The notes beneath the pieces are model-generated. The model did no database searches, was not told the DNA's origin, and saw only the letters and a list, made by a program, of their open reading frames with translations. Positions 22,355-42,751 of a stretch of DNA of 64,000 bases are shown one piece after another (positions within the stretch are counted from its first letter, which is position 1; every line of letters starts with the position of its first letter). The position numbers and the translations under genes are program-made. The stretch is from Aquimarina litoralis (lineage in GTDB: Bacteria > Bacteroidota > Bacteroidia > Flavobacteriales > Flavobacteriaceae), in assembly GCF_019295435.1 (NCBI RefSeq), contig NZ_WEKL01000010.1:62001-126000 (forward strand), written 5' to 3'.

Positions 22355-23239
22355 TTAAAATTTTAACTGTTCATCTCTGTCCCAAATTCCCCAATAGGCA
22401 CCAACATCACCTTCTGCTCCTACTTTCCAGGATTCATCAAAGGATGAGAAATAAAACAACTCTATATCCTCTTCTGCCACCCACTTTTGAGTATTCATAA
22501 AGTACTTCATAGCATTTTCATAGGATGGAAAAGCACCTTCTAGATTAGTTCCTTCACTAGGCCAGCCTGTTTCTGAGATAATTACCTTTTTACCTCTCCC
22601 AGCCCGCAAAGCTCTCTGATACATATCTTTCATATATAACAAGGAATAGTCCAAATCACAGCCTTCCCAAAAAGGGTAGCAATTGGCAAGAATAACATCA
22701 CAGGCATCACTAATTTTTGGATGATCCACGAACTCATAATAGGCATCGACATAACCCACAGGAACATTTTTAATATTGGATTTTGCATATTGTATAAAGT
22801 TCAACAACTGATGCTCTGTTAGATCACCTCTATATAGTACTTCATTTCCAACTGCAGCAATATCTACAAATCCTTCATTACATAATTTGATAAGCCCTTC
22901 AACTTCTTTTTGATTGGTCTCATCATCATCTCCTAACCAAGCACCTACTAAGGATTGTATACCAAACTCCTTAGCTATTTTTGGAATTAGCTCATTTCCT
23001 TCTGTAGTAGAAAACGAACGCACCCATTTGGTATAAGGCGCTATAATTTTCATACGATGACGTATTTGATCTTCAGACAATTGATCTCCTGGTTGTTGTC
23101 CTTCTTCGTATGGGCTAAAACATATTCCATGCATTCCTTGAGCCAAAAACTTTCGAAATAAAACTTGTAATTCTTCTGTACTCTTTCCTGCATAATCCGT
23201 AGATGCTAGTGCTAAAAATTTCTCAGTTCTGATTGACAT
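22355..23239 (-). CDS. Glycoside hydrolase family 17, without signal peptide (cytosolic)
   Basis: Beta-1,3-glucan hydrolase or transglycosylase of 294 residues. The TIM-barrel catalytic pair is visible: Glu133 in VGNEVLYRG (acid/base) and Glu223 in ISETGWPSEG (nucleophile). The C-terminus keeps the GH17 YFSSFDESWK segment. Unlike its neighbour at 26192 it starts directly with MSIRTEKFLALASTD and has no signal peptide or lipobox, so it should act in the cytoplasm on imported oligosaccharides. It is the last gene of the operon, 24 bases after the transporter. Exact activity (endo-hydrolysis, exo-hydrolysis or transfer) is not decided by sequence. Confidence 0.9.
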   Translation of the reverse strand: MSIRTEKFLALASTDYAGKSTEELQVLFRKFLAQGMHGICFSPYEEGQQPGDQLSEDQIRHRMKIIAPYTKWVRSFSTTEGNELIPKIAKEFGIQSLVGAWLGDDDETNQKEVEGLIKLCNEGFVDIAAVGNEVLYRGDLTEHQLLNFIQYAKSNIKNVPVGYVDAYYEFVDHPKISDACDVILANCYPFWEGCDLDYSLLYMKDMYQRALRAGRGKKVIISETGWPSEGTNLEGAFPSYENAMKYFMNTQKWVAEEDIELFYFSSFDESWKVGAEGDVGAYWGIWDRDEQLKF

Positions 23240-24700: not shown

Positions 24701-24710
24701 AATTGTAATT

Positions 24711-26189
24711 TTAGTTGGCAATAACTATTGTTTGAATAGCCTTTGCGTTAATAGAAATATCTTTTATTTTTTCATGGAGCATTAAAGAGAATTGTTTTGT
24801 TTTTTCAGTAGGATTAAAAACGATCACTGCAATCGATCCATCAAGATTTTTAGCTGCAGTGGTCATAAGTTCTGAATCCGAATTTTCGACCTCAATGATC
24901 ATAGCTTCAGGACGTATGTATTTACTGAAATGCGCCATGATATAGTACAATGGTGTAAAATACACCTCATCATTTTCAGGGTCTACAAGTACAGGAGCAA
25001 CACACCAATTTTTAAACCAGTTAGGTCCTCCTTGTCTATCCAATACCATATTCCAATCTACCCATCCATCAACCCAATTATTTAAGCAACCTATGATATC
25101 CCTTGCATACCGATACGTAGGAACATACTTGGGATGTAAATATTTTTGTTCTTCTGGCGCCCAATCCCAACCCCAATCGGTTGCTTCTTTGGTCCAGTAC
25201 CAATCATCATCCTTCCATTTAGGGACTTCTGCATCGATACAAGCTTCGGTTTGAATCAAATATTTGTTCGGTGCTTTTTGATGAGCATATTGCAATGCTT
25301 CTGGAAAAACTTCATATGTACTTTCATACCAATGGATAGCAGTACCATCATAATATTGTGAAGATGCTTTATCTTTAAACATTACATCTACCCATTCCTT
25401 TAATCCTTCTCTATTCTGGTCATATCCCAAAACTTTTATGGCTCCTTTGCCATCTTTCTCTAATTGTGGCCCTAAGTGATTTTGCACAAAGTCTGTCATT
25501 TCTTGTGGTGTAAAATGCATACTTTCCCAATTATCTCCATTTCCATGAGGTTCATTTTCTACCGTAAAACCCCAAATGTTTATTCCTTGCTTTTGATATG
25601 CATCTACATACTTTGAAAAAAATAGTGCCCAAGTATCATAATGCTCTGGCAAAAGTTTCCCTCCTACCCAATCTTTGTTGTCTTTCATCCATGGTGGAGC
25701 CGTCCAAGGAGACGCGAAAATTTTAAAGCCATCTTCAGAAATAGCCAGCGCATCTTTAATCATTGGGATGAGATCATCCATATCTTCTTGCACTGAAAAA
25801 TCTTTGAGTTCTTTATCTTCCTTTGGAGCATACGAATACTGACTTAAAGAAAAATCGCAGGAATTCATATGTGTTCTGGTGAGTGAATAATTAGCTCCTT
25901 CTTTTCCGAAATACGCCGTCAAAATCTTATCTCGATTTTTAGGGCTTACCTTATTCAATAAATAGGCTGAAGATTCTGTAAAAGCTCCTCCAAAACCGGT
26001 GATTTTTTGAAATGTTTTAATTGGGTTTACAACAATACTAGCCTTTACTTCAGTGATAGGGAACTCGGTAATTTCAGATAATTGATGACCACTTGCAGAA
26101 GTCTCATAAACAGCCACTTCCAAACTTTGTTCTTTCGCACATGAACTCATAATTAAAAAAACTAATATTATGTAAATCGTTTTTTTCAT
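24711..26189 (-). CDS. Glycoside hydrolase family 30 lipoprotein (beta-glucosidase / beta-1,6-glucanase type)
   Basis: 492 residues. Lipoprotein signal with lipobox IMSSC (Cys17). GH30 TIM barrel: ITGFGGAFTESSA near residue 64, acid/base Glu213 in TVENEPHG, nucleophile Glu315 in LIQTEACIDA, and the FKNWCVAPVLVDP loop. A short C-terminal beta domain follows. GH30 members of marine laminarin loci remove or cut beta-1,6-linked glucose branches, which suits a debranching role beside the GH16/GH17 enzymes. The stop is 10 bases before the transporter start; the upstream GH17 gene ends 2 bases before this ATG, so translation is probably coupled. Confidence 0.93.
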   Translation of the reverse strand: MKKTIYIILVFLIMSSCAKEQSLEVAVYETSASGHQLSEITEFPITEVKASIVVNPIKTFQKITGFGGAFTESSAYLLNKVSPKNRDKILTAYFGKEGANYSLTRTHMNSCDFSLSQYSYAPKEDKELKDFSVQEDMDDLIPMIKDALAISEDGFKIFASPWTAPPWMKDNKDWVGGKLLPEHYDTWALFFSKYVDAYQKQGINIWGFTVENEPHGNGDNWESMHFTPQEMTDFVQNHLGPQLEKDGKGAIKVLGYDQNREGLKEWVDVMFKDKASSQYYDGTAIHWYESTYEVFPEALQYAHQKAPNKYLIQTEACIDAEVPKWKDDDWYWTKEATDWGWDWAPEEQKYLHPKYVPTYRYARDIIGCLNNWVDGWVDWNMVLDRQGGPNWFKNWCVAPVLVDPENDEVYFTPLYYIMAHFSKYIRPEAMIIEVENSDSELMTTAAKNLDGSIAVIVFNPTEKTKQFSLMLHEKIKDISINAKAIQTIVIAN

Positions 26190-26191
26190 TT

Positions 26192-27478
26192 TTAATGATT
26201 CGTTACCGTCATTTCTTTGATCGCTGGTAATTCTACGTCATTCATCATTGCACTTTTATCTCCACCGTACGTTTTTGTAATAGGATTACCTCCTCTGGTT
26301 AGTCCTTCAAAAACACCTTCATCTAATTTATCCCATAATGCGTATTTAGCTTTTCCATCTACGGTTATCAGACCAAAATGATTTTCTGAACCCTTTTGAT
26401 TATGAGCATCTTTCCAAGGTTCATCAAAAGCTTCAAAATAAAAACAGGATATTCCTTCTTTTGTCGTCCATTCTCTCATGTATTGATGATAGAGCGCTTC
26501 TTTAAATTCATCAGTAGCTTTGGATCCATTAGGCCCATAATGTCCATTAGAAATGGTAGCCCAACCGGTTTCTCCGATATGAATAGGTTTTTGAACTCCT
26601 AAACTGGCTACATATTCAGAAACTGCCTTGTATTGTGATTGTGCAAATTGCAAGGCTCTTTTCATAGCAGCTTCTATTTTTTCTTCGTCGGTTAGACTTT
26701 CTTCTGTTACATCAATTCCCCAAAACTTAGGATTATAGTGGGTATTATGATAGGGATACGTGTGCATTGATATGTAATCTACCGCTTTGATTAGATCTTC
26801 TAAATCTTTTACGTGGTAACTTTCTTCTCCACCACCCCAAGAGGCAAAGTCATCTGATGAGGTGATCCATACATCCTTAGAAAGTTTTCCTTCCTTTTTT
26901 AAATTTTGTAGATAGTTCACCCATTTTAGTATTACATTAGGTTGTACATAATAACTTGTAGCCCATCGGATCATAGCTTCGTTACCAACTGCAATAATCT
27001 TTACAATGTCTGGATATTCATTTGCTAAGGCTACAGCCCGTTTAATCTCTCCTTCATTTTGTTCACTTTCTACCGTATGATCCGGCTTTTTATCAGTCCA
27101 TGCATTTTTGCAATCAATCCAGGCACCTAACATCACATACATTTCAAAAGTTTCATCTTCTTTCTTTAGCTGCCTGATCGCTTTTAACAAATTAGAAGCT
27201 TGCGCTAGTTGAACATTATATGTTCTTAAAACTTTGATGTTCATAGCCTGAAGAATTTTCATATCTTCTTTAAGCTGAGCTACAGTAGGTTGATACTCTC
27301 TTGAAGATTTTCGATAACCTCCATAAGATATCGCCTGATACTCTGGGTTTCCCAATATATCTTTTGCCGAAATACTTTTTTGGGGATGCATAGGTGGTTC
27401 GGTTTTTTGTTTTTGATTACAAGACAGCATAAGTACTGCAAATACTAATAATCGTACTATGTTTTGTCTTAACTTCAT
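26192..27478 (-). CDS. Glycoside hydrolase family 17 lipoprotein
   Basis: 428 residues. Lipobox MLSC with Cys20, then a basic linker, so it is anchored in the cell envelope. The GH17 barrel has NIKVLRTYNVQ, acid/base Glu167 in AVGNEAMIRW and nucleophile Glu303 in HIGETGWATIS, with the YFEAFDEPWK segment near the C-terminus. It would cut beta-1,3-glucan chains outside the inner membrane, complementing the leaderless GH17 at 22355 (the two are clearly distinct in length and sequence). It starts 4 bases after the phosphorylase gene and ends 2 bases before GH30. Confidence 0.92.
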   Translation of the reverse strand: MKLRQNIVRLLVFAVLMLSCNQKQKTEPPMHPQKSISAKDILGNPEYQAISYGGYRKSSREYQPTVAQLKEDMKILQAMNIKVLRTYNVQLAQASNLLKAIRQLKKEDETFEMYVMLGAWIDCKNAWTDKKPDHTVESEQNEGEIKRAVALANEYPDIVKIIAVGNEAMIRWATSYYVQPNVILKWVNYLQNLKKEGKLSKDVWITSSDDFASWGGGEESYHVKDLEDLIKAVDYISMHTYPYHNTHYNPKFWGIDVTEESLTDEEKIEAAMKRALQFAQSQYKAVSEYVASLGVQKPIHIGETGWATISNGHYGPNGSKATDEFKEALYHQYMREWTTKEGISCFYFEAFDEPWKDAHNQKGSENHFGLITVDGKAKYALWDKLDEGVFEGLTRGGNPITKTYGGDKSAMMNDVELPAIKEMTVTNH

Positions 27479-27482
27479 CTCT

Positions 27483-30400
27483 CTACTTTAAAATAGTTTT
27501 GTCAATATTTACTTTCACACTTTCTATTTCTCCAGTTCTTTTAAATAGTTTTTGAGAGATATCTACAGGTAATCTTACATCTGGATACGTAACCAGAGAT
27601 CCATCTACATAAGTAATTTCTATACCTTTTTCTGCGGATAATCCATAAACAATTGGTACCTGACAATAGGTAAAAGCTAATTCGTGTCTATATAATTGTA
27701 ACTGTCTTCTATTCAGATGTACATCTACATATTCGAACATCTTTGGATCCTTTATAAACTCTCCTATTCTTAATAAACTGGGATAGAATTTTAGCGTTCC
27801 TTCCTTTACCGAAATTCCTAGTTCGCCCATTCGACTAAGAATATCTTCTTTTACTTGCCCAGTCATTCCAGGCTGTTGAGCTCCTTTTCCTTGTGGTGTA
27901 TGAGAGTATGGATCTGTTGGAAAAGCTCCGTACAATTCTGGAGATTTATGAACTCCAATACCTTCATTTATTTCATAATAATGCTCTAATAATCTTCCAA
28001 TGATCTCAGCACTTTCATTTTCTTCTATAGCTTTTAAGCAACATTCTTGTACCGCTAATAGTAATTTGGATACCATATGCCAGTAAATAGATCCTAAACC
28101 TTCATATCCAAAAAAAGTACCTGATCTACCGGTAAATGCTTTATGATTAAAAACTTCTTCGAAAATTTCCAATACCAGTGATTCATCTTTTTCTATTAAA
28201 CTATGATACCCTTTTAAAGCAAGTTTTTCTAATGCTTGTTTTAAACTATCTGCATTATTAAAATTTCCATTAAAATGAAAATTACCTTGTATATCTTTTT
28301 CTATTATTTGTGCATTTCCATCGGCCAATAATTGCTTTAGTAATACAGATTTCTCTATTTGATTTTCTGAAACAACATTCTTCTCTATAAACTTTGGTAA
28401 TTCTTTATTTGGGTATAATAAATAGCTGTATTGATCTTCTCTGAATAATGCGCTTCTTTTTAAGGCATCTAAAACAAGAAGATTTTCTTTAGATGACAAA
28501 TATCCTGAGCTAAGCACGGCAACCTGTCCTTCTAACATTTCACTTAGATATGAAATTGAAATTTCTTCATCGTTAGTAACAGTCATTAAATTGTAAGCAT
28601 GATATAGGTTATCAACTCTCTTATTGGCTTCTATCGAATGTTCCAAATACAAAAGACTAAGACTCACAAAATTTCTAAGATCTTGAGCTACTATTTTCTC
28701 CTTTTTACCAGAGAATCCATGATTATAAACATGTAATCTATAATCACTTCCGGCAGTACCTAGTTTATCTAAAATGAGTCTTCTGTCAGTATCTGATATT
28801 TTACCTGAAAGTATCGATTGAGAGTTATCAAAAGTTTCATACACTTCTATAAAAAAATCTTTTAATTCTGTGGAAATTTCAATTTCTTCAATCGATGATG
28901 TTGCCAATAATTCTTTAAAAAAGAAAAGAAACCTTCGTAAATAATATAATGTTACCATAGAAACTCCATTACCAACTAGAGCATTATTAGCATCATTCCA
29001 TTCTGGACGTTGCGTATTGAGCCAAATACCGGCTTCGGGAATAAAATTAGAGAGCTTGGCAAGCATTGTCACTAAGATTTTCTCAATGAAATTCACATGA
29101 TGGATAGTCTTATGGTTACTTAGTAACAATGCTCCGTCGGCACCAAGCTCAGTTCTTTTGTTTCGTATACTTCTATCAAGTTCATAATCAAACACTATTG
29201 TATCTTTTGGATCCTGTAAAAGTTCTTGATATGGTTTAATCTTATAAGGTACATTAGCGTATACGAACATATCTTGACCTAAAAAGTCTTGTAATCTATT
29301 TGGATAATAGTCTTGAAAAAATTCTAAAAACTTTAATAGGTAAATAATTTGATGATCACCCCAATAGCCGATGTATGACCATGGATCGTGTTCTTCAACA
29401 ATTTCCCAATCGATACCACCTTTTGTAATTCTATAAGGATTATACCCGTCAAAAGTGCTGGCATTTAAAAATTTGTGAATCATACTTTCCACAAATTCGG
29501 GATACGAATGCGCTAAAGCTTCCCAGTTCTGAAAAATATCTCTCCAGTTCCCCTCATAATCTAGGATTTTGGACCCGTCTATTTCGCTTTGAGTATTTAT
29601 TGAGAATCTATTCCAAGGGCGACTTGGATCACCATGCCTTCTACTAAATTTTAAAGGCATATATTCTAAGGCAAGTCTAATAAAGTCTTTGTCATTATTT
29701 TTGTACGCTACCTCTTTTAGTTCAAATAGCGTAAATACATCTGGAAAATCTTTTAAAAGCACTTCACTTTTATTGTACACATCTGTATTAGCAGTTTCCA
29801 GATAATTGGTGAAATCTATTTTTTCTATGGTATAGTTAAAATCAAAAATACCACCTCTCATTATATTAAATAAGGCATTAGAATAATGCCTAGCATTTCT
29901 TCTTTTATCTGCTGTAAGCTGAAAACCGTCTGATGCAGAAACTAGATTTATTAGTTGTTCATTTCCTAACGAAATATCATTATGTATTTCTTGGATAATA
30001 TCATCATTCAAGTAGAGCTTTTTGGAAATCTCTGCTACCTGTGATGGCCCTTGATTGACATTCGCGACAGTTATCCAGTTTTTAGTATTATTTGATTCTA
30101 AATTGATCGTACTATTGATAAAATACGCTCCTTTTTCTGCCTTTATATCAATTTCTTCAAGGATATCTTCTCCTTTTCTATAAGCATCTAGTTGTAATGA
30201 TGATACTAAGTATTTAGGCTTTTCTAGACCTTTAGACCAAACTATATTTGCTTTTAAGGCTTCACTAGGCTCCGCTCGATCAACTATAATGGCACTTAAA
30301 GTATAAATACCAAGACCGCTTGTTTTTACAAGTTCATTTCTCTTATAAGCATCAACAAGGTTGCTTCTTATAGCTTGTAAATCGGTATGAACTCCATAAG

Positions 30401-30947
30401 GCATTATGTTTTGTAATCCATCTAATATTTCTATTTCAATGGCATGATCAGAGTTATTAATCAACGAACTTTTCTTTACAAAACCATATTTATTGCTAGA
30501 ACACCACATATAGGTATATGTAATCTCTAAATCATGATTTATTTCTTCAAATAACACCTTATTTCCATATACACTTTTATAAATATTTCTAGAATACTTA
30601 TAAACTCCTGTATACCTTTCGGAAAACGGCTCCCATATATGTACTCTTCCCTCCTTTTGCAGTCTGAAAATCGATTTACTACCTGTAATATCCGATGATT
30701 CAGTAATCTTATCATCGGTATAATACGGAAAAATGGAATGATCAGAATCTTTTCTTCCTGCTGATAATCCTCCGTTGCTAGATATAAACATCCAATGATT
30801 GGAATCGCTAACAATACTCATAAAAAAGGGGCGCATGATATCATTATTAGCTATCATATAAAATAGCTCATTATCTATCGTAACGCTTTGAAGTTTTACC
30901 TCTTTAGTTCCTATTCCTTCTGGTAATATTACTGCATCTTTTACCAT
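27483..30947 (-). CDS. Large cytosolic GH149-type beta-1,3-oligoglucan phosphorylase
   Basis: 1154 residues, no signal peptide. The layout fits GH94-like inverting phosphorylases of families GH149/GH161: an N-terminal beta-sandwich (RPFFMSIVSDSNHWMFISSNGG and GRKDSDHSIFPYYTDDKI), then an (alpha/alpha)6 barrel with EEHDPWSYIGYWGDHQIIYL (about residue 515) and the GKGAQQPGMTGQVKED segment (about 1030). Such enzymes split beta-1,3-gluco-oligosaccharides with phosphate and give glucose-1-phosphate. Length (~1100) and the N-terminal phrase favour GH149, but GH161 cannot be excluded by eye. The gene sits between a surface binding protein and GH17; a hairpin separates it from the upstream gene. Confidence 0.7.
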   Translation of the reverse strand: MVKDAVILPEGIGTKEVKLQSVTIDNELFYMIANNDIMRPFFMSIVSDSNHWMFISSNGGLSAGRKDSDHSIFPYYTDDKITESSDITGSKSIFRLQKEGRVHIWEPFSERYTGVYKYSRNIYKSVYGNKVLFEEINHDLEITYTYMWCSSNKYGFVKKSSLINNSDHAIEIEILDGLQNIMPYGVHTDLQAIRSNLVDAYKRNELVKTSGLGIYTLSAIIVDRAEPSEALKANIVWSKGLEKPKYLVSSLQLDAYRKGEDILEEIDIKAEKGAYFINSTINLESNNTKNWITVANVNQGPSQVAEISKKLYLNDDIIQEIHNDISLGNEQLINLVSASDGFQLTADKRRNARHYSNALFNIMRGGIFDFNYTIEKIDFTNYLETANTDVYNKSEVLLKDFPDVFTLFELKEVAYKNNDKDFIRLALEYMPLKFSRRHGDPSRPWNRFSINTQSEIDGSKILDYEGNWRDIFQNWEALAHSYPEFVESMIHKFLNASTFDGYNPYRITKGGIDWEIVEEHDPWSYIGYWGDHQIIYLLKFLEFFQDYYPNRLQDFLGQDMFVYANVPYKIKPYQELLQDPKDTIVFDYELDRSIRNKRTELGADGALLLSNHKTIHHVNFIEKILVTMLAKLSNFIPEAGIWLNTQRPEWNDANNALVGNGVSMVTLYYLRRFLFFFKELLATSSIEEIEISTELKDFFIEVYETFDNSQSILSGKISDTDRRLILDKLGTAGSDYRLHVYNHGFSGKKEKIVAQDLRNFVSLSLLYLEHSIEANKRVDNLYHAYNLMTVTNDEEISISYLSEMLEGQVAVLSSGYLSSKENLLVLDALKRSALFREDQYSYLLYPNKELPKFIEKNVVSENQIEKSVLLKQLLADGNAQIIEKDIQGNFHFNGNFNNADSLKQALEKLALKGYHSLIEKDESLVLEIFEEVFNHKAFTGRSGTFFGYEGLGSIYWHMVSKLLLAVQECCLKAIEENESAEIIGRLLEHYYEINEGIGVHKSPELYGAFPTDPYSHTPQGKGAQQPGMTGQVKEDILSRMGELGISVKEGTLKFYPSLLRIGEFIKDPKMFEYVDVHLNRRQLQLYRHELAFTYCQVPIVYGLSAEKGIEITYVDGSLVTYPDVRLPVDISQKLFKRTGEIESVKVNIDKTILK

Positions 30948-31025: not shown

Positions 31026-33305
31026 TTAATTTGGGGTAATGTTAAAATCATCTAAGTAGAAAGTAACATCTGCTGGTGTTGTTCCTGGATCTACATTTCC
31101 AGGTTTTACAACAAGCATGGTATACACAGATTCATCAGCAGTATTCGGAAATCCGTTGGCTGATAAATCAAAAGACATTTCCACCCAGTCATTATCAGTG
31201 GTAAGTGTTTGAATATACGGTGCCGGATTTCCAATAGAACCATCATTAGGAATCGCTACAATTTCTAAACGAATTTCTTGGTTTGGTAACGTAGCATATA
31301 TCTTAAAGGTAATGGTTGCATTGTTTGAAAAACTACCAGCTGCAAAAATATTTTGAAAACCTCCAAAACCATCTGCTCCTGCAAGTTTTGTAAATCGATA
31401 TACTTTATCAGAAGTATTGATTCCTCCAGAAACAGGATTGTCTATAATTTCTCTAGATTGATTTGCTCCAAAGGAAATATTAAAGCCTTCACAATTTTCG
31501 AAATCTACAGGAAAAGAGGTCACATCTGCATTAGGTCCTCCAGTACAACCACCTCCAGTACCTCCAGAACTATATAATCTAAAGTCATCTATAAAATAGG
31601 TTTCGGTGGTATTAGTATTTAATTCAAAGAACAATATAATTTTATCATATTTCCCGCTTTCTCCAGGAGCAAAATCAAAGGTCAATTCTTCCCAGCCACT
31701 TGCTACAGTGGTTACCGCACCAACCTCGATATTAATGGCAGCATTCGCTTTATCTTCTAATTTTACAAGCACATTGGTACCAGCATTAGGAGACCATACT
31801 TTCAATCTAAAGCCAGAATTTGCATTAAAGTCAAACTTTGAATCAAAATCAATTTGATTATTGGCAAATAATGCAGCTCCTGATCGATCGATTTGACCAA
31901 CTTTACAAGATTTATTTACGTTATTATCAAAATCAGGATTATCTACCCAAGATAAACCAGCATCAAAGGAGCCAATACTTGCCGTTGGATCAGTTTGGAA
32001 TGTAAGATCAAAATCAGCAGCATTTAGAGATTGACTAGTTTCAGGGACACAAGGATCCGCAATCATAACAGAAACTTGCTCAATATCATCTACATAAAAA
32101 GTTCCAGCTGCCGTACCTGGACCATCCACAAAAATTACCATATCATTATAAGAAGCAGAAGAATTTAATGTGAATGTCAATTCTTCCCAACCGGTACCTC
32201 CATGATTCTGTGCATTTTCTACTGGGGCCTCGGTACCATCCTCAAATTTTAATAAAATTGGTAGCGCCTGATTAGAAAACAATTTCATTCGTATTCCTTT
32301 ATCTGATGAAAAATCAACAGCTGTATCTAGATTGAAAAAAGCATTTTCCCAATTTGCACCTACATTAGTGATTTGTCCAACCATGGTTGGTTCACTATTG
32401 ACTCCTGATAACTCAGGATTTTCAACCACTGTAAAGGATACGTTACCCACAATTTTCGTTGCATAATCGATTCCATTGCAATCAAAATCTATTGGAATTT
32501 CTAACAAAGTCTCTGTACAAGGAATATCTGCCGTATCAACTTGTGAAATATCATCTATATAAAAGGTTCCAGATGTGGTACCAGGTCCATCTACAAACAT
32601 CGTAAACCTTGAAAACGAATCTCCAGAATCAAACGTAAAATATATTTCTTCCCATCCAGTTCCTCCATGACTCGCTGTGGTTTCCACATCTCCACCAGTT
32701 CCTTCTTCGAGCTTCAATAAAACATCGATTGGAATATTCGACCAGAATATCACTTTTACAGATTTTTGTTCTGCTAAACTTAAGGGTTCTCCTAAATTAA
32801 AAAAGAAACCTTCAAACGCAGCTCCGCTATTTGTAATTTGTCCTACATTTGATGTACTTGGATTTGCTCCAGTAGGATCTGGATTTTCGACAATTTCGAA
32901 TGCTGCTCCATTGAATGTAGTAACATCATAATTGACATTGGTATCATCAAAATTAATAGGAAATGTAATGGGCAAAGGAATATTTATAAATATTTCATCT
33001 TCAAAAGTACCTTCTGCCCCAGCTACATTTTTTGCAGTTAATATTACAGTATAGTTTCCTGTTGGATATATTTTAGTTGGATTAATTTCGGTAGAAGTTG
33101 TACCATCTCCAAAATTCCAAGTATAACTATCAGCATTTTCCGAGAGATTGATAAAAGATACAACACCTGTGTCTTGGTTGATAGTTTGTGCGAAACTTGC
33201 AGTAACCTGTGGTAAGCTAGCATCATCATCATCTTCGCATCCCAAAAAAGCAACAGCCACTATTAAAATCCAAATTATCTTTGTTTTTGTGATAAACTGT
33301 TTCAT
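31026..33305 (-). CDS. Surface glycan-binding lipoprotein: PKD domain plus four carbohydrate-binding-like modules
   Basis: 759 residues. Lipobox FLGC (Cys about 23) followed by EDDDD, the acidic signal that sends Bacteroidota lipoproteins to the cell surface. Then a PKD domain (about 35-110, SYTWNFGDGTTSTE) and four beta-sandwich modules of 140-170 residues; the first three end in a GTFYIDDI, GTFYVDDI or ETYFIDDF strand and share GGTGWEELTFTL-like cores, and the last is more divergent. No catalytic motif. This is the structure of a non-catalytic glucan-binding protein that replaces SusE/SusF-type proteins. It lies between GH16 and the phosphorylase. Binding of laminarin is inferred from the neighbours. 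Confidence 0.82.
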   Translation of the reverse strand: MKQFITKTKIIWILIVAVAFLGCEDDDDASLPQVTASFAQTINQDTGVVSFINLSENADSYTWNFGDGTTSTEINPTKIYPTGNYTVILTAKNVAGAEGTFEDEIFINIPLPITFPINFDDTNVNYDVTTFNGAAFEIVENPDPTGANPSTSNVGQITNSGAAFEGFFFNLGEPLSLAEQKSVKVIFWSNIPIDVLLKLEEGTGGDVETTASHGGTGWEEIYFTFDSGDSFSRFTMFVDGPGTTSGTFYIDDISQVDTADIPCTETLLEIPIDFDCNGIDYATKIVGNVSFTVVENPELSGVNSEPTMVGQITNVGANWENAFFNLDTAVDFSSDKGIRMKLFSNQALPILLKFEDGTEAPVENAQNHGGTGWEELTFTLNSSASYNDMVIFVDGPGTAAGTFYVDDIEQVSVMIADPCVPETSQSLNAADFDLTFQTDPTASIGSFDAGLSWVDNPDFDNNVNKSCKVGQIDRSGAALFANNQIDFDSKFDFNANSGFRLKVWSPNAGTNVLVKLEDKANAAINIEVGAVTTVASGWEELTFDFAPGESGKYDKIILFFELNTNTTETYFIDDFRLYSSGGTGGGCTGGPNADVTSFPVDFENCEGFNISFGANQSREIIDNPVSGGINTSDKVYRFTKLAGADGFGGFQNIFAAGSFSNNATITFKIYATLPNQEIRLEIVAIPNDGSIGNPAPYIQTLTTDNDWVEMSFDLSANGFPNTADESVYTMLVVKPGNVDPGTTPADVTFYLDDFNITPN

Positions 33306-33504: not shown

Positions 33505-34362
33505 TTAGTTTGTATTTATAGATTCATATACTCGTACATAGTCTACCACCATGGTTTGAGGAAAGACTGTTTCTTCGCTTGGCGGTCCAGGTAAGTTACC
33601 ACCAACTGCAAGATTTAAAATAATGTAAAACTCTCTATCGTTAAATACCCATTCTCCTTCTCCATCTGTTTCTTCATTCACTTCTTCAGGAGTAATTTGA
33701 TAGTATAATACATCATCGACATAATAGTTTATATAATTTGGTCCCCATTCTATTCCATAAATATGGAAGCCTGTGTCTACCCTATCGTTTTCTAGTGTAT
33801 ATGTTTTTGATATAGAGCTTGCCGCCGAGTAACCTGGTCCGTGGACTGTTCCAAATATTTCTGTAGGGGCATCACCAGTATTCTCCATAATATCGATCTC
33901 ACCTATCTGTGGCCAAACGCTACCGTCGCTATCATCTCCTAAAAGCCAAAAGGCAGGCCACATTCCCTGACCAAATGGTAATCGGATGCGCGCTTCAAAA
34001 CGCCCATAACGCTGTTGGATTTTTCCTTTGGTTTGTAATCTTGCAGAGGTATATTGTGCTCCATTAAAATCTTCTTCTTGAGCTGTAATCAACAAAAAAC
34101 CGTTCTCTACAGTTACATTTTCGGGTCGATCTGTATAAAATTGCAACTCATTATTTCCCCATCCGGGAAGCCCTTGTTCTGAGCCATCACCAATGTCAAA
34201 ATTCCAAAAAGACGTATCAATCTGGCCATCTATATCAAAATTATCTTCTGCTACCAAATTATTAAATCTGGCTACCGTTTGAGTATCATCAGTTCCACAG
34301 CCAATTAAGAAAAGACACGGTATAAAAAGAGCTCCTATTATTTTATTTAAATTCTTATTCAT
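33505..34362 (-). CDS. Glycoside hydrolase family 16 laminarinase lipoprotein
   Basis: Endo-beta-1,3-glucanase of 285 residues from the ATG at 34362; an upstream TTG-type start at 34404 would run into the previous gene and precede the signal peptide. Lipobox LIGC (Cys22). The jelly-roll catalytic motif is GEIDIMENTG with Glu155 (nucleophile), Asp157 and Glu160 (acid/base). WPAFWLLGDD and the HGPGYS strand are also typical of GH16 laminarinases. It begins 13 bases after the upstream binding-protein gene. Probably surface-attached; first cutter of the glucan chain. Confidence 0.95.
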   Translation of the reverse strand: MNKNLNKIIGALFIPCLFLIGCGTDDTQTVARFNNLVAEDNFDIDGQIDTSFWNFDIGDGSEQGLPGWGNNELQFYTDRPENVTVENGFLLITAQEEDFNGAQYTSARLQTKGKIQQRYGRFEARIRLPFGQGMWPAFWLLGDDSDGSVWPQIGEIDIMENTGDAPTEIFGTVHGPGYSAASSISKTYTLENDRVDTGFHIYGIEWGPNYINYYVDDVLYYQITPEEVNEETDGEGEWVFNDREFYIILNLAVGGNLPGPPSEETVFPQTMVVDYVRVYESINTN

Positions 34363-34375
34363 TTTTAAATTGTTT

Positions 34376-35839
34376 TTACTCTCTGTAGAAATAAATATTA
34401 TCAACTATAAAAGAACTGCCATTTGATATCAAAGCAACTCTTGCTATATTGTTCAAATTGGGAGAACCAGCAAATCCACCTCCTGTAGGTTGGGTAAAGG
34501 AATTGATAGGTATATCTATTCCAACCCAAGTACCTTCTATTAATTCTGAGTTGGGTACAACGAATCCTCCTCCTGTATCATCTCCACCTCCATCTGCGTC
34601 ATTAGCTCCAAAGTCAATTAATTCAACAGTAAGTGCTGGACTTGTAGGACTACTAAGCTGTACATCTATGTGTAAATGTGTCATAGCAGATACATCATTT
34701 GTACCATCCCAACCAAGTCCAACAAAGCCTAAATTATCGTACGTAACGATCTGATCATTATTGAAATTTTGTGTTTGGACCTGTACATTTGGATCATTGA
34801 ATACAGCAAAGTTCAAGTTGTTAACACTGGTGTATGCATCACTAAATATGGATATAACATCTCCAGGATCTCGTGCTGGAGGAGTATCTGCTCCAACAAA
34901 ACTACCGAGTACCTCTAAACTCAAAGATCCCTCAGCCAAAACACCATTAAGTTGACCTGTAATGGTTGTTGTACCTTCACCAACAATTTCAATTGATCCT
35001 AATTCATTAATAAAGGCAACATCAGTATTGGAGGACGAAAAATCAAAATACCTTGGTGCAACACCTACGGTAATATCTTCTCCGGTCGGAGCATTAAAAG
35101 TTGCTCCTAAATTGTTAATTAATCTATTAGACCCTACAAAACCTTGCTCGGTTAGATCTTCACCGGAAAATATAGATGGTCTGAGTTGAGCTATTGTGCC
35201 TAGGTTCTCAAATCGTAACTCATCAATCCAAAAGGTAAAACCAATCTCATTTCCATTAGGCACTGAATCGATTATATCTAGCCCTCCAGCTGAAAAAATA
35301 AACATCCCTCTTTCTTGTATTAATTTTGAAGGATCAGGAATCGGAACAATGTATTTTCGCCAATCTGTAGATAATTGAATATTCTGTCTTTCAACTGCAA
35401 ACTTATTTTCTTCAAAATCGGTCCCAAAACCTACTAAACCTATAGTAGCAGTTACAGAGCCCTTAGCCCAAAAGGATAAAGCTGTATACCCTGTTAAATC
35501 TCTTCCTACACCTCTATCCAGAAATATACCTCCTACGAAACTCCCATTCGGATCATTTGCTGCTGGCACATCAATTCTTATGGAAGAGTTTCCTTCAAAA
35601 GCTACATCATCATCAGTTCCAAAAGCTTCGGGATTAGCGCCTAAAGCAGGGTCAAATGATCTAAAAAATTCGTCTGTAAGACTTACAGGACTATCTGTGA
35701 AAATGTCAGCAGTATTTGGAAAGGTTGCAAAAACCGCTTCGTCTGAAAGGTTTCTTTCACAGCCAACGAGTAGTACTAAAACCAATGTCAAAGAGAATAT
35801 GGTTTTCAAGTTAATCTGTTTTCTATTCTTCATTTTCAT
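34376..35839 (-). CDS. Glycan-binding lipoprotein with beta-sandwich modules and Ig-like (Big_2) domain
   Basis: 487 residues, with two possible ATG starts six bases apart (35839, 35833). Lipobox LVGC (Cys about 27). N-terminal carbohydrate-binding-like sandwich (about 40-215) with GYTALSFWAKGS and GFTFWIDELRFENLG strands, a bacterial Ig-like segment (about 220-305, SSNTDVAFINELGSIEIVGEG), and a second sandwich (about 325-487) ending in SSFIVDNIYFYRE. No catalytic residues. The layout resembles surface binding proteins of marine laminarin loci. It lies between the glycosidase-barrel fusion and GH16 in the same direction. Confidence 0.78.
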   Translation of the reverse strand: MKMKNRKQINLKTIFSLTLVLVLLVGCERNLSDEAVFATFPNTADIFTDSPVSLTDEFFRSFDPALGANPEAFGTDDDVAFEGNSSIRIDVPAANDPNGSFVGGIFLDRGVGRDLTGYTALSFWAKGSVTATIGLVGFGTDFEENKFAVERQNIQLSTDWRKYIVPIPDPSKLIQERGMFIFSAGGLDIIDSVPNGNEIGFTFWIDELRFENLGTIAQLRPSIFSGEDLTEQGFVGSNRLINNLGATFNAPTGEDITVGVAPRYFDFSSSNTDVAFINELGSIEIVGEGTTTITGQLNGVLAEGSLSLEVLGSFVGADTPPARDPGDVISIFSDAYTSVNNLNFAVFNDPNVQVQTQNFNNDQIVTYDNLGFVGLGWDGTNDVSAMTHLHIDVQLSSPTSPALTVELIDFGANDADGGGDDTGGGFVVPNSELIEGTWVGIDIPINSFTQPTGGGFAGSPNLNNIARVALISNGSSFIVDNIYFYRE

Positions 35840-35932: not shown

Positions 35933-38900
35933 TTATTTTCCTATGTTAATGTGTATGTACGTTCTGATCTCCCATTCGTTACCGTCGTCAAATCCAACTG
36001 GACTTAATATAGGTTCTGGAGGGAATGTATTTGGTGGTACTGCTGTGGGCGAATATCGAGGAGAAAACTCATTTAAAGAACGCCAAGTACCGCGAAGCCC
36101 AATTCTGGTGCTTGGTAGGATAAACCAATCTGGTTTGCCAATAGATGTTGATATATCCAACATTAATTGTACTGGATATGTTAAGTTAAAATCTCGATGA
36201 TAATCATAAGGTCCCCAATCATCTATTTGAAAGGTATGTTGAAACATCCACTTTTTATAAATCACACGTATATCTCCACCGATTCTATCGATTTCTCTAG
36301 CATCACTACCATTTGCCTGACCATTACCAGCATATACATTTGCAACCATCCCTAAATCAGGATTTATTTTAGATACGATTCGTGAACGTGCTTCCCATAA
36401 ATCTCTAGCTGGTACAGAACCAGGAAACGCAAATATGGTACGATCTGCTAAGAATCCGATGTGTGCATCCATTGTTGTAGGAAGATGCCAATAGGTAAAT
36501 CCTAAATTAAAAGCCAATTTAGCATCTTCCTTTCTGTCATTATCCCATTGATAAAACCAAGATCCAGGAGTAGGATCATAAGTAAATAATATCTCTCCTG
36601 CAGTTGTTTTTCTGTTTGCTCGCACTACAAATGGATCTACAAGAATGTTTCTTAATCTTGCGGTTCCACCTGCATCATTTGGTATCGCATCGACTAAGGG
36701 CTCTTGCCATAGAAAATTCGGTGCTATCTGCCAATTCCCAACGGTGTATGTAAAACCGGTTAGAAAACTATTTTGGTTTCCACTTCCGTTGTCTCTCAGT
36801 TTCCAACCAGCAAAAGATTGAGTTTGATCTGCTCCTCCATTTGCTACCAATCCAGTGGTAGCACCTTGGGCATACCAATTGAATTTTCCTTTAGAATATG
36901 TTATTTTTGCTTTAGCTCCCCAATTGTCTTTGCTATTTATCTTATCTTCATATACTACTCCATCTCTTATATCTTGATAGCTAATATCGTTTAACGGACT
37001 ACCTGCCCATATACCTCCGAGTGCAAAACCAAATGCGCCAAGATCTCTTTCTACTACCAACGTAGCTCTTTCGGTTGGCCAAGGTGGAATTACACCACTT
37101 CTTACCTGATTTGCATCCAATACACGGCTTCCACTTTCGTCCAATGCTATATCCGTCTCGAAATCTCTATGGTAAATACCAGTGATATCGAATTTTTTTA
37201 TGTTGGTTCGATATTTCAATAACGCAGTAGGATTAGCGCCCCACCATACTTGTGGACCAAATGCGGCTTTTAAACCATCTAAACTTCCTTTACCATTTAT
37301 TTCCATTCCCAAAATTTCACCATTATAGATATCTAGGTTTGGGCCATAGTTAGCTTCTGGGTACAATCCAAAAAAATCCCCTTCATAACCCCAATGATAG
37401 TGACCGGTTCTGTAGAATCCTTTGATGTCAGCAATTTTAGTGTTCCATTCATATTCTGCATTATACACCCGTAACCTATTAAAATCAGTTATTTCAACAC
37501 CTAAATCATTTACTCCTTCTACGCCTTCTACACCTTGCACCACCACAGGTCTCCCCACACTTTCATAGAATAATTCATTAATAGGATTTCCAGCTACATT
37601 ACCGAGGATATTAACGTTCACATTGGCACGCATATTAGGAGCGGGTCTACCTTCTACACCTACATAATAGGATTGCATATGATCAAAACCTTGTTGGTTT
37701 GGAAATACATTTGCATTAGGATCTTCATTTTCTGGAGTGGTGATCAGTTTACCACCAGTATTAAACGTAGTGAATTCCGCTCTTAACTGGCTTAATCTTA
37801 TCTTACTGCTACTTTTACCTTCGAGAGCAGCTTTATCTCCTCTTGCTCTTAGCATTGCATCAGTTATCTCAATATTGTTGAAATAATTTCTCATAAAATC
37901 AAGTGACATTCCCGATTCATAAGGATTTAATCGATGTACTTCTTTTAAAGCATAGTAAGCTGCTCTTGGATATAACTCATAAAGACCTCTTTCATTGGTG
38001 GGTCCTTTGGCACAGATACCAAACCACTCTTCATTCATATTATTATCGCCTTCTTTCCCTTGATCACGACTATAACCTCCATTTGCCCAAGAAGCTGCAT
38101 TGTCATGAACACTCAGGTTTTCAGTTTGTTTGTATTTCCACCAACCATCGCTAAATTGAAAGGTAAATCCACCTATAGAGTTCCCACTTTTTCCTAAACC
38201 AGCGGCATTTTCATAGATATCTTTCCAATTTCCAACATCATAATACGCCTGTGAATATTGATCTTCTTGATTATCTCTTGCATTAAATGCATCTGCACCA
38301 AATTCAGAAAAAAGAATAGGAAGGTTTAATTCATTTTTCACTCTTTGAAAAGCATCTCCAAAAGAAATTCCACGATACATATTGGTTCCATAGATATCAA
38401 TATCAGTACATTCTTCTTTGACAATATCTAAAAAGCCTAAATCACCGTTACAAATAGCTACTGGAGTATTCGGATCTATTTTTTTAACCTCTTTCGTAGC
38501 ATCATTAAATGCTCTGTATAAAAATCGAGCAGCCAATCTTCCAGTATCTCCTTTATCTTCTACCGGTATATCTTCGGTTTCTGCTCCTGACCAAAATAAA
38601 TGATAGTTGTTCTCATTACCGATCATGTATATTAATAAACCAGGAGTACCTTTATATGTCTTTGCCATATCTCTGGCCTCTTGCATTAATACTTTTTTAG
38701 TATCTGCATTTGCATAATCAGTTTGTGGTACCCAAGCTCCATTTATGGTAAGTCCATAGGCTCCAAACGTAATATTAAGCATTGTATAAATGCCGTAATT
38801 CTCATAAATATATTTGATCCATTTAGGTTTCAAATTATACGTTCGAATGGCATTGACTCCCATATTTTTAAGTAAAGACATTTCGCCATCTATAGCAGCT

Positions 38901-39118
38901 CTAATGATATCATCAGATTTTGCCCAAATTCCGGGATCTGTTATGGTAGAGCCAATTGGAACATAATCCCAATTAACACCATTTACCATGAAATCCTTTC
39001 CATTGACTACTAATTTTATTCCTTGTTCATTGTTTACAACAGATACTTGATTAGCTTGTGAGAAACCAAGTGTTGTTAACAAAAAGAATATGATTAATGC
39101 TAGAAAATTATTTCTCAT
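35933..39118 (-). CDS. Glycosidase (clan A TIM barrel) fused to an outer-membrane beta-barrel
   Basis: 1061 residues from the ATG at 39118; the frame continues 25 codons upstream but the signal peptide (MRNNFLALIIFFLLTTLGFS) starts here. Residues ~23-430 form a GH2/GH72-like catalytic domain: GVNAIRTYNLKPKW, IGNENNYH with Glu169 as likely acid/base, and PILFSEFGADAF with Glu272 as likely nucleophile. From ~430 to the end there are many amphipathic strands (for example NWGAKAKITYSKGKFNWYAQ and WQIAPNFLWQ), as in an outer-membrane barrel; the very end is YIHINIGK rather than a terminal aromatic. It is the first gene of the operon, upstream of binding proteins and GH16. Specificity is unknown; a beta-glucan substrate is inferred from context. 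Confidence 0.75.
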   Translation of the reverse strand: MRNNFLALIIFFLLTTLGFSQANQVSVVNNEQGIKLVVNGKDFMVNGVNWDYVPIGSTITDPGIWAKSDDIIRAAIDGEMSLLKNMGVNAIRTYNLKPKWIKYIYENYGIYTMLNITFGAYGLTINGAWVPQTDYANADTKKVLMQEARDMAKTYKGTPGLLIYMIGNENNYHLFWSGAETEDIPVEDKGDTGRLAARFLYRAFNDATKEVKKIDPNTPVAICNGDLGFLDIVKEECTDIDIYGTNMYRGISFGDAFQRVKNELNLPILFSEFGADAFNARDNQEDQYSQAYYDVGNWKDIYENAAGLGKSGNSIGGFTFQFSDGWWKYKQTENLSVHDNAASWANGGYSRDQGKEGDNNMNEEWFGICAKGPTNERGLYELYPRAAYYALKEVHRLNPYESGMSLDFMRNYFNNIEITDAMLRARGDKAALEGKSSSKIRLSQLRAEFTTFNTGGKLITTPENEDPNANVFPNQQGFDHMQSYYVGVEGRPAPNMRANVNVNILGNVAGNPINELFYESVGRPVVVQGVEGVEGVNDLGVEITDFNRLRVYNAEYEWNTKIADIKGFYRTGHYHWGYEGDFFGLYPEANYGPNLDIYNGEILGMEINGKGSLDGLKAAFGPQVWWGANPTALLKYRTNIKKFDITGIYHRDFETDIALDESGSRVLDANQVRSGVIPPWPTERATLVVERDLGAFGFALGGIWAGSPLNDISYQDIRDGVVYEDKINSKDNWGAKAKITYSKGKFNWYAQGATTGLVANGGADQTQSFAGWKLRDNGSGNQNSFLTGFTYTVGNWQIAPNFLWQEPLVDAIPNDAGGTARLRNILVDPFVVRANRKTTAGEILFTYDPTPGSWFYQWDNDRKEDAKLAFNLGFTYWHLPTTMDAHIGFLADRTIFAFPGSVPARDLWEARSRIVSKINPDLGMVANVYAGNGQANGSDAREIDRIGGDIRVIYKKWMFQHTFQIDDWGPYDYHRDFNLTYPVQLMLDISTSIGKPDWFILPSTRIGLRGTWRSLNEFSPRYSPTAVPPNTFPPEPILSPVGFDDGNEWEIRTYIHINIGK

Positions 39119-39423
39119 TATATCTATTGTTTTTAAAAATGACCGTAAAAATTGTGTAGAAACTTTGCTTTCTGTATTCGCCCCAAGTATCATGTAACAT
39201 GACTTTTAAATATTAAGTTAAGTGATTGTTTGTGATGTATTCCGTCTGTAGACTGGAGTAAACTTATTTTAAAAAAATGCGAAATCATCAAAAAACACCT
39301 CAACAAAAAGCATACAATTCAAATAAATACTTATTTTTTTGAATTATTATCACTTTAAAGCCCGTTAGTCAACGGTTTCAAAGGCACATTAAACAAGCGT
39401 TAAAAAAAAGAACAGCGTATTGC
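39119..39423. other. Intergenic region carrying the presumed operon promoter
   Basis: This region of about 300 bases should hold the promoter of the glucan operon. No exact TAnnTTTG occurs on the minus strand; TAAGTTTA is near-consensus. A short CCGTT/AACGG hairpin lies at 39362-39375, close behind the regulator gene, and may be a weak terminator. Confidence 0.4.
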
Positions 39424-39465
39424 TGTATAGGTAATGTATAGGTAAAAAATCTAGCTGTATAGGTA
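39424..39465. promoter_or_regulatory. Three direct repeats TGTATAGGTA between regulator and operon
   Basis: Copies at 39424-39433, 39435-39444 and 39456-39465, spaced 11 and 21 bases, which is one and two DNA turns. They abut the regulator stop codon and lie about 300 bases upstream of the operon start. Candidate binding site of the HTH regulator. Confidence 0.5.
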
Positions 39466-42303
39466 TTATAATTGTAGGATATAGTTTACAAGATTCTCTT
39501 CGTGCTGTAAATTTAGTTTTTTACGGAGTCTATAACGCTTAATTTCAACACTACGAGCAGATATATTAAACAATGGAGCTATCTCTTTTGATGATAAATT
39601 AAGTCTTAGATATGCACATAACTTTAAATCATTTGGTGTTAAATCTGGATGGTGCTTTTTGAGTTTTTTCAAAAATTTTCTGTCTACATTATTAAAAGCT
39701 TCTTTAAAAAATTCCCAATTATCATTATGATTAAGATTCTCATCAATTATATCTACAACAGGTTTAATTGCTTTTTGGTCAGAAATATGTGTAAGATGAT
39801 TTTTAATTTGAGTCAGTAATTCATTCTTTTTTGCCAAATCTATTGTCGATGCAGCCAATTCTTTACTTTTTCCTTCAAATTCTTTCTCTAGCTGTTCATT
39901 TTTAATTCTGATAATTTCCTTTTCATTTTGAATATTAGTCAATTCTAATTTTCTTTTATTCTTTTCTATCAGCTCATTTTGTTTTCGTTTATAATACTGT
40001 CTATACATTGTATGCATAAAAATGGAAAACAAGATGATTCCTAATATGTAAATTCCTAGCATCAGGTTTGTGATATACCAAGGTTTGGAAATACTAAAGG
40101 AATAACTAGCAGTATTCTCAGAAATTTTATTGCCAATTTTAGAACGTACATTAAAGGTATAATCTCCAAAAGGTAGGTTTTGAAATAAGGTTGAAGATGC
40201 TTCTGACCATTCACTCCAATCATCATATATACCAACTAACTGAAATTGATATCTTGGTTTTAAATATCGATTATATTCTGGTGCATAATAGGATATTTCT
40301 AAGTTGTTTTCTGAGCTCTTAAAATCACCTTGTAACTCTTTATTAAGAAATGTTATCGTTTTATTTTGTTTCTTATTGGGTTGCTGAATAACGTTTTCCA
40401 AATAAACCTTAAAACTTTTCACATTCAATTTATTGATATCTGCTGTAATATAACCATTACTAGTTCCAAAAAAGTATGAACTTCCATCTTTGAGGCTCAT
40501 AGCACTTTCGTAACCAGTAACACAGTTTCTTTCTTCCTTGGTAAATGGTATTTTACTAACTTTTGGAGTTCTGGTTAATGTTCCTTGGGTAATAAAACTG
40601 ATATTAGACTTGGTAAAAACCCATAAGTTATTATTCGATATATCTAAAATTAACTTCCCCGAAGTGTATTCTTCCTCTGTGTATATTTTGCTCAAAACAC
40701 TGTCCTTTACGAACTGCTCTTTTTGACCATTATATTTAAAAATCCCTTCTTTAAAAGCATATAATAACTCTTCATTATACTTTATTAATCCAGAGTTTGA
40801 ACCAATGATTGTAGTATCGTTATGAATATTTTTTACCTCATAAAAACTAGAATCGACTTGTATTCTGAATACTCCTTTATATTCATGATTTACAAAAATA
40901 TCATCTCCAAAAACCTCAAAATACCTAGATGAATTATGAAACCCTTCAATCCTATTTCTTAATTGCCAATCGCTATCTGTCTTTTCTAAAATATATAAAC
41001 CATCATAGTTACCTTGTAACAAAAGGTTTGGCCTATCTTTTAATTTACGAATATTCCAAGTTCCCTGAACATTTGATATTTTTTTTGCCTGATTATTCTG
41101 AATTGTAAATGTACCGTTGTTATGACCACAAAATAATGTTCCTTCAATTTTATGTAAACACCAAACTTGCCCTTCTGTACCCTCTATAAATCGAAAATCC
41201 TCATTTCCGTTTAGTTCTTTATAAAAAAGACCTTGATTAGTTCCTAGATATAAATAATCCTGATAAATAGCTGAGGCATAAACGCTTCCTAAAACACTTC
41301 GATTATTCTTATATATCCTAAATGGAGAATCTACATTGATATAACTTATTCCGTTATCTAGTCCTAACCAAATATTTCTGTCAACATCTTCAAAAACCGA
41401 CAAAACTGTATTATTAGCTAATCCATTATTTTGATCTACTTGGTGCAACAGATCTCCATTACTATCTAAATAAATAAGTCCATCGGCAATAGTTCCAAGA
41501 ACAAAACTATTGTCTTTAGTTTTAATTGCATTATAAATACTTACTTCAGTGAGTAATTTTTCTGTTTTTGTATTCCACTTTATTAATTGGTTATTTTTGA
41601 ACTTATAAAAGCCATCATCTCTTGTTAAAATAAGTAAATCATTTGTGTTCCCTGTTATAGAAACGACCTCCTTATTTTTAACAATATCATTATCAATAAC
41701 ACGAAATCCTTTACCATTTTTTATTTGAAAAATTCCTTCTGTAAGAATCTGGAAATAAATACTATTATCAACTTTATATATTTTCGTAATTGTATGATCT
41801 GAATCTACAGTATTCACTGAAGCATTCACTACATCATAAATATAAATGCGATTTAGTGATTGAAAAACAATCCAATCTTCAATCTTAATAATATTCCAAA
41901 ATTCTTCATCTTCGATTAAGTCTACAGCAAGGTTTTGTGATAACGATGTGTATTTCAGTTCTCCCAAATCATCTTTCTCCCAGAACCCAAATTCCATGTA
42001 GCAACCCGTATAGATTCTATTTCCATCTGCTTTTACAGATCTTAAAATAGATTCGTTAGGAGAAGGATATACCTTCCATATTGCACCATTAAATTCTAAT
42101 AATCCTTTATTATTGGCTACATAGATTCGTTTGTCTGAAGATTGACAAACAGCCCAATTTTGACTCTCACCTTTATAAGTTTTTGGTGAATAATTTTGGA
42201 TAGGAGGTAATTCCTGCGCATTTAAGGACACACAGTAAAGAATAGCTAATAAAAATGATATAATTTTATGATATCCCAATGAATAAAAGAAGTATTTTAT
42301 CAT
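39466..42303 (-). CDS. One-protein sensor/regulator of the glucan locus: periplasmic propeller, Y_Y_Y, membrane helix, LuxR-like HTH
   Basis: 945 residues from the ATG at 42303 (an earlier frame start at 42336 is before the signal peptide). Signal peptide ending near SLNAQ. Long periplasmic beta-propeller sensor (about 25-640; NIWLGLDNGISYI, YLYLGTNQGLFY), Y_Y_Y domain (about 660-725), one membrane helix (about 737-757), coiled coil rich in Lys/Glu (about 760-830), and a C-terminal helix-turn-helix (about 890-945) with SSKEIAPLFNISARSVEIKRYRLRKKL. There is no kinase or receiver, so signal detection and DNA binding are in one protein anchored in the inner membrane. It sits directly upstream of the glucan operon on the same strand and most likely activates it. 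Confidence 0.9.
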   Translation of the reverse strand: MIKYFFYSLGYHKIISFLLAILYCVSLNAQELPPIQNYSPKTYKGESQNWAVCQSSDKRIYVANNKGLLEFNGAIWKVYPSPNESILRSVKADGNRIYTGCYMEFGFWEKDDLGELKYTSLSQNLAVDLIEDEEFWNIIKIEDWIVFQSLNRIYIYDVVNASVNTVDSDHTITKIYKVDNSIYFQILTEGIFQIKNGKGFRVIDNDIVKNKEVVSITGNTNDLLILTRDDGFYKFKNNQLIKWNTKTEKLLTEVSIYNAIKTKDNSFVLGTIADGLIYLDSNGDLLHQVDQNNGLANNTVLSVFEDVDRNIWLGLDNGISYINVDSPFRIYKNNRSVLGSVYASAIYQDYLYLGTNQGLFYKELNGNEDFRFIEGTEGQVWCLHKIEGTLFCGHNNGTFTIQNNQAKKISNVQGTWNIRKLKDRPNLLLQGNYDGLYILEKTDSDWQLRNRIEGFHNSSRYFEVFGDDIFVNHEYKGVFRIQVDSSFYEVKNIHNDTTIIGSNSGLIKYNEELLYAFKEGIFKYNGQKEQFVKDSVLSKIYTEEEYTSGKLILDISNNNLWVFTKSNISFITQGTLTRTPKVSKIPFTKEERNCVTGYESAMSLKDGSSYFFGTSNGYITADINKLNVKSFKVYLENVIQQPNKKQNKTITFLNKELQGDFKSSENNLEISYYAPEYNRYLKPRYQFQLVGIYDDWSEWSEASSTLFQNLPFGDYTFNVRSKIGNKISENTASYSFSISKPWYITNLMLGIYILGIILFSIFMHTMYRQYYKRKQNELIEKNKRKLELTNIQNEKEIIRIKNEQLEKEFEGKSKELAASTIDLAKKNELLTQIKNHLTHISDQKAIKPVVDIIDENLNHNDNWEFFKEAFNNVDRKFLKKLKKHHPDLTPNDLKLCAYLRLNLSSKEIAPLFNISARSVEIKRYRLRKKLNLQHEENLVNYILQL

Positions 42304-42751
42304 TACAATAATACGAATTATTAATTCAAGACTCATAGTATCAGTTTACTATTCCAAAATTCAAATTACCAATCACCACAATTAGATCACTAAAAAATAC
42401 TTCTTACAAAATCTAACTCCAATTATAAAATCTCCTACAATTTAGTCTTTATAAGTACAGTCATTTATATCAAATATGATTAAAAATCCACTCCAAAATA
42501 TATTTATTTTTTCTAAAACCTGAAGAAAAACGACCTCATTTTTAAAAAAATTATTTTTTATTAAAAATAAAAAAAGAGCTTTTACCAGCTAAAAATCTAA
42601 TATCATACAACTGTAAAAAACAAAAATAAATACAACATAAAACATTGAATATCAGATAAAAAATCAAGAAAACAGTTCACCATTAATTGAACAAAAAAAG
42701 GTTTAAATAATTTTTTGCGAAAATCACATTTTAAATATTTTTAAACAATTT

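Follow-up and report, generated by a model that had tools for sequence, protein, structure and literature searches.

Laminarin accounts for one of the ocean's largest carbon flows, and its uptake by Bacteroidota is modelled on SusC/SusD, with surveys marking laminarin use by SusC/D. How might oligosaccharides then enter the cell where an operon for beta-1,3-glucan encodes neither protein? This question is raised by a stretch of 64,000 nucleotides from Aquimarina litoralis contig NZ_WEKL01000010.1 (the window), in which an earlier note had described the gene that opens a glucan operon lacking SusC/SusD as a glycosidase fused to an outer-membrane beta-barrel. Six-frame profile searches of the 64-kb window matched neither SusC nor SusD, in agreement with that description, and the SusD matches of this genome are all on other contigs, none on the 141-kb contig that carries the operon.

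The mechanically called open reading frame at 35933-39193 (minus strand) is intact and encodes 1086 aa. To judge by its homologues and signal peptide, translation begins at Met26 (window 39118), which gives a protein of 1061 aa at 35933-39118, exactly as the earlier note had delimited it (Table 1). Enzyme and barrel do share one polypeptide, both halves being in a single intact frame. The fusion is intact in about a hundred relatives, which rules out a frame error or the joint reading of two separate genes as its source. A loose lipobox pattern matched 2 of 121 homologues, a pattern that overlooks some genuine lipoboxes. The whole chain was modelled with AlphaFold2 from 91 sequences (mean pLDDT 82, pTM 0.62); an earlier model built on 31 sequences was weak (pLDDT 68, pTM 0.47), and the deeper alignment improved both values. 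The linker is the least conserved part of the protein, with a mean column entropy of 1.17 against 0.66 for the glycosidase domain and 0.73 for the barrel. The G+C content of the gene is higher in the barrel half (0.39) than in the enzyme half (0.34), that of the window being 0.33.

Table 1. Features of the fusion gene and the surrounding operon, in window positions.
Feature	Position	Strand	Evidence
Fusion protein, 1061 aa: clan GH-A glycosidase, linker, predicted 24-strand outer-membrane barrel	35933..39118	-	ORF, homologues, AlphaFold2
Sec signal peptide, type I-like, MRNNFLALIIFFLLTTLGFSQA, without lipobox	39059..39118	-	Read from sequence
Clan GH-A TIM-barrel domain, residues about 21-400	37919..39058	-	PF02836 2e-8; structural and sequence matches
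E169 codon	38612-38614	-	
E272 codon	38303-38305	-	
Variable linker, two helices, 406-414 and 418-436	37802..37918	-	AlphaFold2 model; column entropy
Predicted 24-strand outer-membrane beta-barrel, residues 440-1060, no Pfam family	35936..37801	-	AlphaFold2, Foldseek, strand statistics
Partner lipoprotein L487, lipobox Cys27 invariant; Big_2-like middle, CBM-like flanks inferred by eye	34376..35839	-	Profiles, co-occurrence
GH16 lipoprotein and likely laminarinase, its true start probably the ATG of codon 15	33505..34404	-	PF00722 8.7e-25
PKD/CBM4_9 lipoprotein, likely glucan-binding	31026..33305	-	Profile search
GH149 beta-1,3-glucan phosphorylase, without signal peptide, cytosolic	27483..30947	-	NF058639 1790.9 bits, cut-off 1150
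GH17-like lipoprotein	26192..27478	-	Profile search
GH30 lipoprotein	24711..26189	-	PF02055 2.9e-76
MFS_2/GPH sugar transporter, inner membrane	23264..24721	-	PF13347 2.2e-68
GH17 without signal peptide, cytosolic	22355..23239	-	PF00332 1.8e-14
Y_Y_Y/propeller sensor with LuxR-type DNA-binding end, upstream of fusion	39466..42336	-	Profiles; recurs in relatives
Terminator-like hairpin between regulator and fusion	39412..39426	-	1 found vs 0.1 expected; consensus match only

In the enzyme half, Glu169 (GNENN) comes directly after strand beta4 (161-166) and Glu272 (SEFGA) stands at the end of beta7 (268-273). An N-E acid/base following beta4 together with a nucleophile Glu at beta7 places the domain in clan GH-A, and the two glutamates that had been proposed as catalytic thus occupy fitting positions; all 91 homologues share N168, E169 and E272. 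These three residues correspond by fold position to N136, E137 and E220 of BuGH158, an enzyme killed by mutating them (PMC7157763). The family to which the domain belongs had been suggested to be GH2- or GH72-like. Pfam Glyco_hydro_2_C scored 34.2 bits, above its cut-off of 21 (PF02836, 2e-8), whereas Glyco_hydro_72 scored 20.7 bits, below its cut-off of 25.9; GH2 and GH72 are Pfam labels only, and GH157 and GH158 are closer. Neither Pfam nor the model contained the sugar-binding and Ig-like N-terminal domains of GH2 enzymes, only about 25 mature residues preceding the TIM-barrel region. A pure GH2 galactosidase or glucuronidase is ruled out, since those domains are absent and the operon is one for beta-1,3-glucan.

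Structural comparison of the enzyme half gave Z scores of 29.9 for GH157, 28.5 for GH2 glucuronidases and 27.7 for GH158, values among which little separates one from the next. GH158 ranked first both by Foldseek and by sequence, the best PDB sequence match being GH158 9oro (E 5.9e-6, over just 144 residues). The GH158 and GH157 endo-beta-1,3-glucanases (BuGH158 6PAL, GH158(Pro) 9ORO and LaGH157 9G4N) have the same TIM barrel, the same N-E acid/base after beta4 and beta7 nucleophile, and a beta-1,3-glucan context, although their identity to the enzyme half is only about 20%. BuGH158 ends in an Ig-like domain (PMC7157763), whereas in the fusion an outer-membrane barrel comes after the enzyme. 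By sequence and model, then, the enzyme half appears to be a clan GH-A glycosidase closest to the laminarinase families GH157/GH158.

For the remainder of the chain, the earlier note had read about 600 residues as amphipathic strands and named a barrel of 14 or more strands joined to a TIM barrel as support for the fusion. Whole-chain prediction gave 24 long amphipathic strands, with small loop hairpins, over residues 440-1060 (about 620 residues). Hydrophobic alternation along these strands was 2.74, against 1.43 in within-strand shuffles, with none of 2000 shuffles as high, whereas the strands of the TIM barrel alternate no more than their own shuffles. Residues I, F, L, Y and W are frequent at outward positions, and G, N, T, R, E and D at inward ones. 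The model and the strand alternation rule out a soluble beta-propeller or sandwich for this half. Among the Foldseek matches were outer-membrane barrels (Campylobacter MOMP, BenF-like porin, PfeA and BtuB; E about 4e-8 to 4e-9), at rmsd values of 12-15 A that make these matches evidence of barrel type only. A Pfam search of the C-terminal half matched no family, and the VIA-align structural matches cover the enzyme half alone. With a signal peptide, an even count of long amphipathic strands and alternating turns and loops, the modelled domain has the features of an outer-membrane barrel.

Loops and turns alternate around the barrel, the loops long (mean 24 aa) and the turns short (mean 5 aa), and both barrel ends are on the short-turn side. 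The loops at 570-602, 624-630 and 969-979 are near-invariant and aromatic, and some long loops have an entropy of only 0.06-0.24, against the enzyme-domain mean of 0.66. Such loops would suit a sugar-binding or pore-lining surface, and conservation of this strength would otherwise be unusual. The short turns of outer-membrane proteins face the periplasm. Given the even strand number, with both ends at short turns and the long loops opposite, the N-terminal enzyme would be on the periplasmic side, and in the model the glycosidase would hang at the periplasmic mouth of the barrel. The barrel had been proposed to serve as an anchor or as a pore; a pore is plausible, and with the enzyme periplasmic a channel bearing the enzyme at its exit is more likely than a surface anchor.

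The genes from the fusion downstream through the last GH17 are separated by gaps of 199 bp or less, and the terminator-like hairpin ahead of them would fit a separate transcript that begins with the fusion. The GH149 equivalog match points to beta-1,3-glucan as the substrate. GH16, GH149, two GH17, GH30 and an MFS transporter under a LuxR-type regulator are together the gene set of the variant B or 'variant 1' laminarin PULs of marine Flavobacteriia (PMC6298971, PMC10108472), the susCD pair of variant B (PMC6298971) not being present in the window. Loci of this kind have been reported to contain an unclassified GH0, and one PUL to lack susCD (PMC10108472). The same set, in the form of a LuxR-type regulator, 'GH2', GH16, PKD protein, GH149, GH17, GH30_1, MFS and GH17, makes up the Muricauda laminarin PUL of a 2026 paper that names strain 176CP4-71 and calls the first gene a GH2 beta-glycosidase (PMC13188888). 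That strain (SGIU01000001.1) is one of our compared loci (L144), and the fusion is there in the published gene order. The Muricauda account names no outer-membrane importer and does not mention the barrel half (PMC13188888).

Full-length relatives of the fusion are spread across the phylum, with matches somewhere in 52 of the 395 genomes sampled, from 30 of 171 genera. The barrel profile matched 36 of the 395 genomes, intact matches having open frames no shorter than about 1050 aa and the others being interrupted, contig-split or remnant copies. No stand-alone barrel, or barrel with another enzyme, was found in these 395 genomes at E 1e-3, a threshold that remoter barrels could escape. A scan of GTDB genomes gave at least 580 loci with barrel relatives. 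The best 80 of these are nearly all intact fusions, mostly from marine Flavobacteriaceae (Kordia, Winogradskyella, Flagellimonas/Muricauda, Maribacter and others), and nearly all repeat the operon gene order; some have a SusC-SusD-binding protein-GH16 block between the regulator and the fusion. SusC/SusD lie within 9 kb of the fusion in 25 of 104 fused loci, so their absence holds in the window but is not universal, about a quarter of relatives having them adjoining the fusion. Common descent links the compared loci, a few genomes being represented twice (e.g. L041/L092).

The fusion also reaches the gut, where its homologue in Bacteroides finegoldii (54% identity) is annotated 'glycoside hydrolase family 2 TIM barrel-domain containing protein'. 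In that locus (L205 11867-16325, NZ_OY725931.1) the fusion is followed by an L487 homologue, GH16 and, further on, a GH3-type BglX beta-glucosidase. The sequence NZ_OY725931.1 is called a plasmid, yet it carries a valyl-tRNA ligase gene and rpsA and may be a chromosome piece. A Persicobacter megaplasmid also encodes the fusion. The fusion is thus real, widespread, conserved and overlooked, and we found no description of an enzyme and outer-membrane barrel fusion of this kind in the open-licence literature.

The partner lipoprotein L487 adjoins the fusion in 101 of 104 fused loci and is within 9 kb in 102, both exceptions being at contig ends. It is absent from all eight intact loci in which the enzyme is unfused (L061-L067 and L069), a set that leaves out the broken or truncated L068, L070, L142, L155 and L162 and the distant outgroups L071-L073. 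From this co-occurrence and joint absence we take the barrel and L487 to be one module. In the tree the unfused forms nest within the fused clade and supported branches force at least five changes; the barrel has probably been lost several times. One unfused locus, L061 (2025-3690), retains a decayed remnant of strands 1-2 past a stop codon, followed directly by GH149; as its sequence reads, it is an intermediate of barrel loss in which barrel, lipoprotein and GH16 apparently went together. Two unfused loci, L062 and L065, have SusC/SusD, and several unfused relatives of the enzyme bear a lipobox. The fusion gene of L068 (1271-4176) is split into open pieces of 308 and 286 aa, and directly behind the latter lies an ORF that resembles a transposase (IS110-like by eye).

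The pairing of a large outer-membrane barrel with a glycan-binding-type lipoprotein in a PUL is likewise a property of SusC/SusD importers, and by this analogy L487 and the barrel may behave as SusD and SusC do. The SusC barrel has 22 strands, as against 24 predicted here. The fusion differs further from SusC and other TonB-dependent transporters in that there is no plug match and no SusC homology in the window, the enzyme replacing the plug. Joining of enzyme and transporter has a precedent in the same pathway at the inner membrane, where the MFS-GH17 fusion of Formosa (PMC6246565) also holds a transporter and a laminarin-active glycosidase in one chain; there the carrier is helical, whereas here it would be an outer-membrane beta-barrel.

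We lean towards a SusC/D-independent uptake of laminarin in which the barrel would act as the channel and a tethered periplasmic laminarinase would form part of the same protein, a reading whose transport step and membrane side we infer from sequence and model. Surface GH16 and binding lipoproteins would hold and shorten laminarin, and oligosaccharides would pass through the barrel guided by the conserved aromatic long loops. The glycosidase at the periplasmic mouth would cut them as they emerge and so prevent back-diffusion; GH17 and GH30 would complete the trimming, the MFS carrier would import the products and GH149 would phosphorolyse them in the cytosol. The fusion module would replace SusC/SusD or act beside them. 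Being wide, a pore of 24 strands would have to be narrowed by loops or by the enzyme domain. A bolder form of the proposal, in which the glycosidase sits in the plug position of a wide channel and periplasmic cutting is a catalytic ratchet replacing both TonB energy and SusC/SusD, we regard as doubtful. A channel with its enzyme in a single chain would offer a natural design and would explain oligosaccharide import by operons without SusCD, and a second conserved outer-membrane module annotated as 'GH2 TIM barrel' would mean that laminarin users have been missed.

The barrel might instead carry the glycosidase outside, as in classical autotransporters (T5aSS), with the helical linker in the pore and the enzyme at the surface beside GH16 and the binding lipoprotein. 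The order of signal, enzyme, helix and barrel matches that of classical autotransporters, the helices at 406-436 precede strand 1, and the partner proteins are lipoproteins that may be surface-exposed. However, the predicted barrel is twice as large (24 strands rather than 12) and matches no autotransporter family in Pfam, the near-invariant long loops favour handling of substrate by the barrel, and the linker that would fill the pore is the least conserved part, so that we hold surface display to be unlikely.

Quite unlikely, too, is a barrel that simply fixes a glycosidase, whether periplasmic or at the surface, to the outer membrane without conducting sugar, import being left to SusC/SusD or porins elsewhere. 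The 25 fused loci with SusC/SusD at hand agree with such a role, as do the SusD homologues elsewhere in this genome, since another transporter could serve laminarin, and the lipobox that several unfused relatives have instead suggests that anchoring matters. A lipid anchor would suffice for that purpose, however, and 620 residues constrained about as strongly as the enzyme, with invariant loops and a co-lost lipoprotein, would be a costly means to it. Participation of the barrel in beta-glucan export or synthesis, with a GH72-like glycosidase trimming or transglycosylating the product, is very improbable: a weak GH72 profile match and Gas2 among the Foldseek matches point that way, but the operon has no glycosyltransferase, its GH149, GH16, GH17 and GH30 enzymes and its sugar importer serve catabolism, and laminarin induces a similar locus in Formosa (PMC6246565, PMC13188888).

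Three other proteins in the window were also noticed. One ORF at 46367-48451 combines DUF2306, a beta-lactamase-type serine hydrolase and TPR repeats; an 1846-aa protein at 3051-8591 has an adhesive domain of ice-binding-like type as well as a T9SS sorting tail; and a trypsin-like protease at 57305-59161 carries a ricin-type lectin domain and a T9SS sorting tail.
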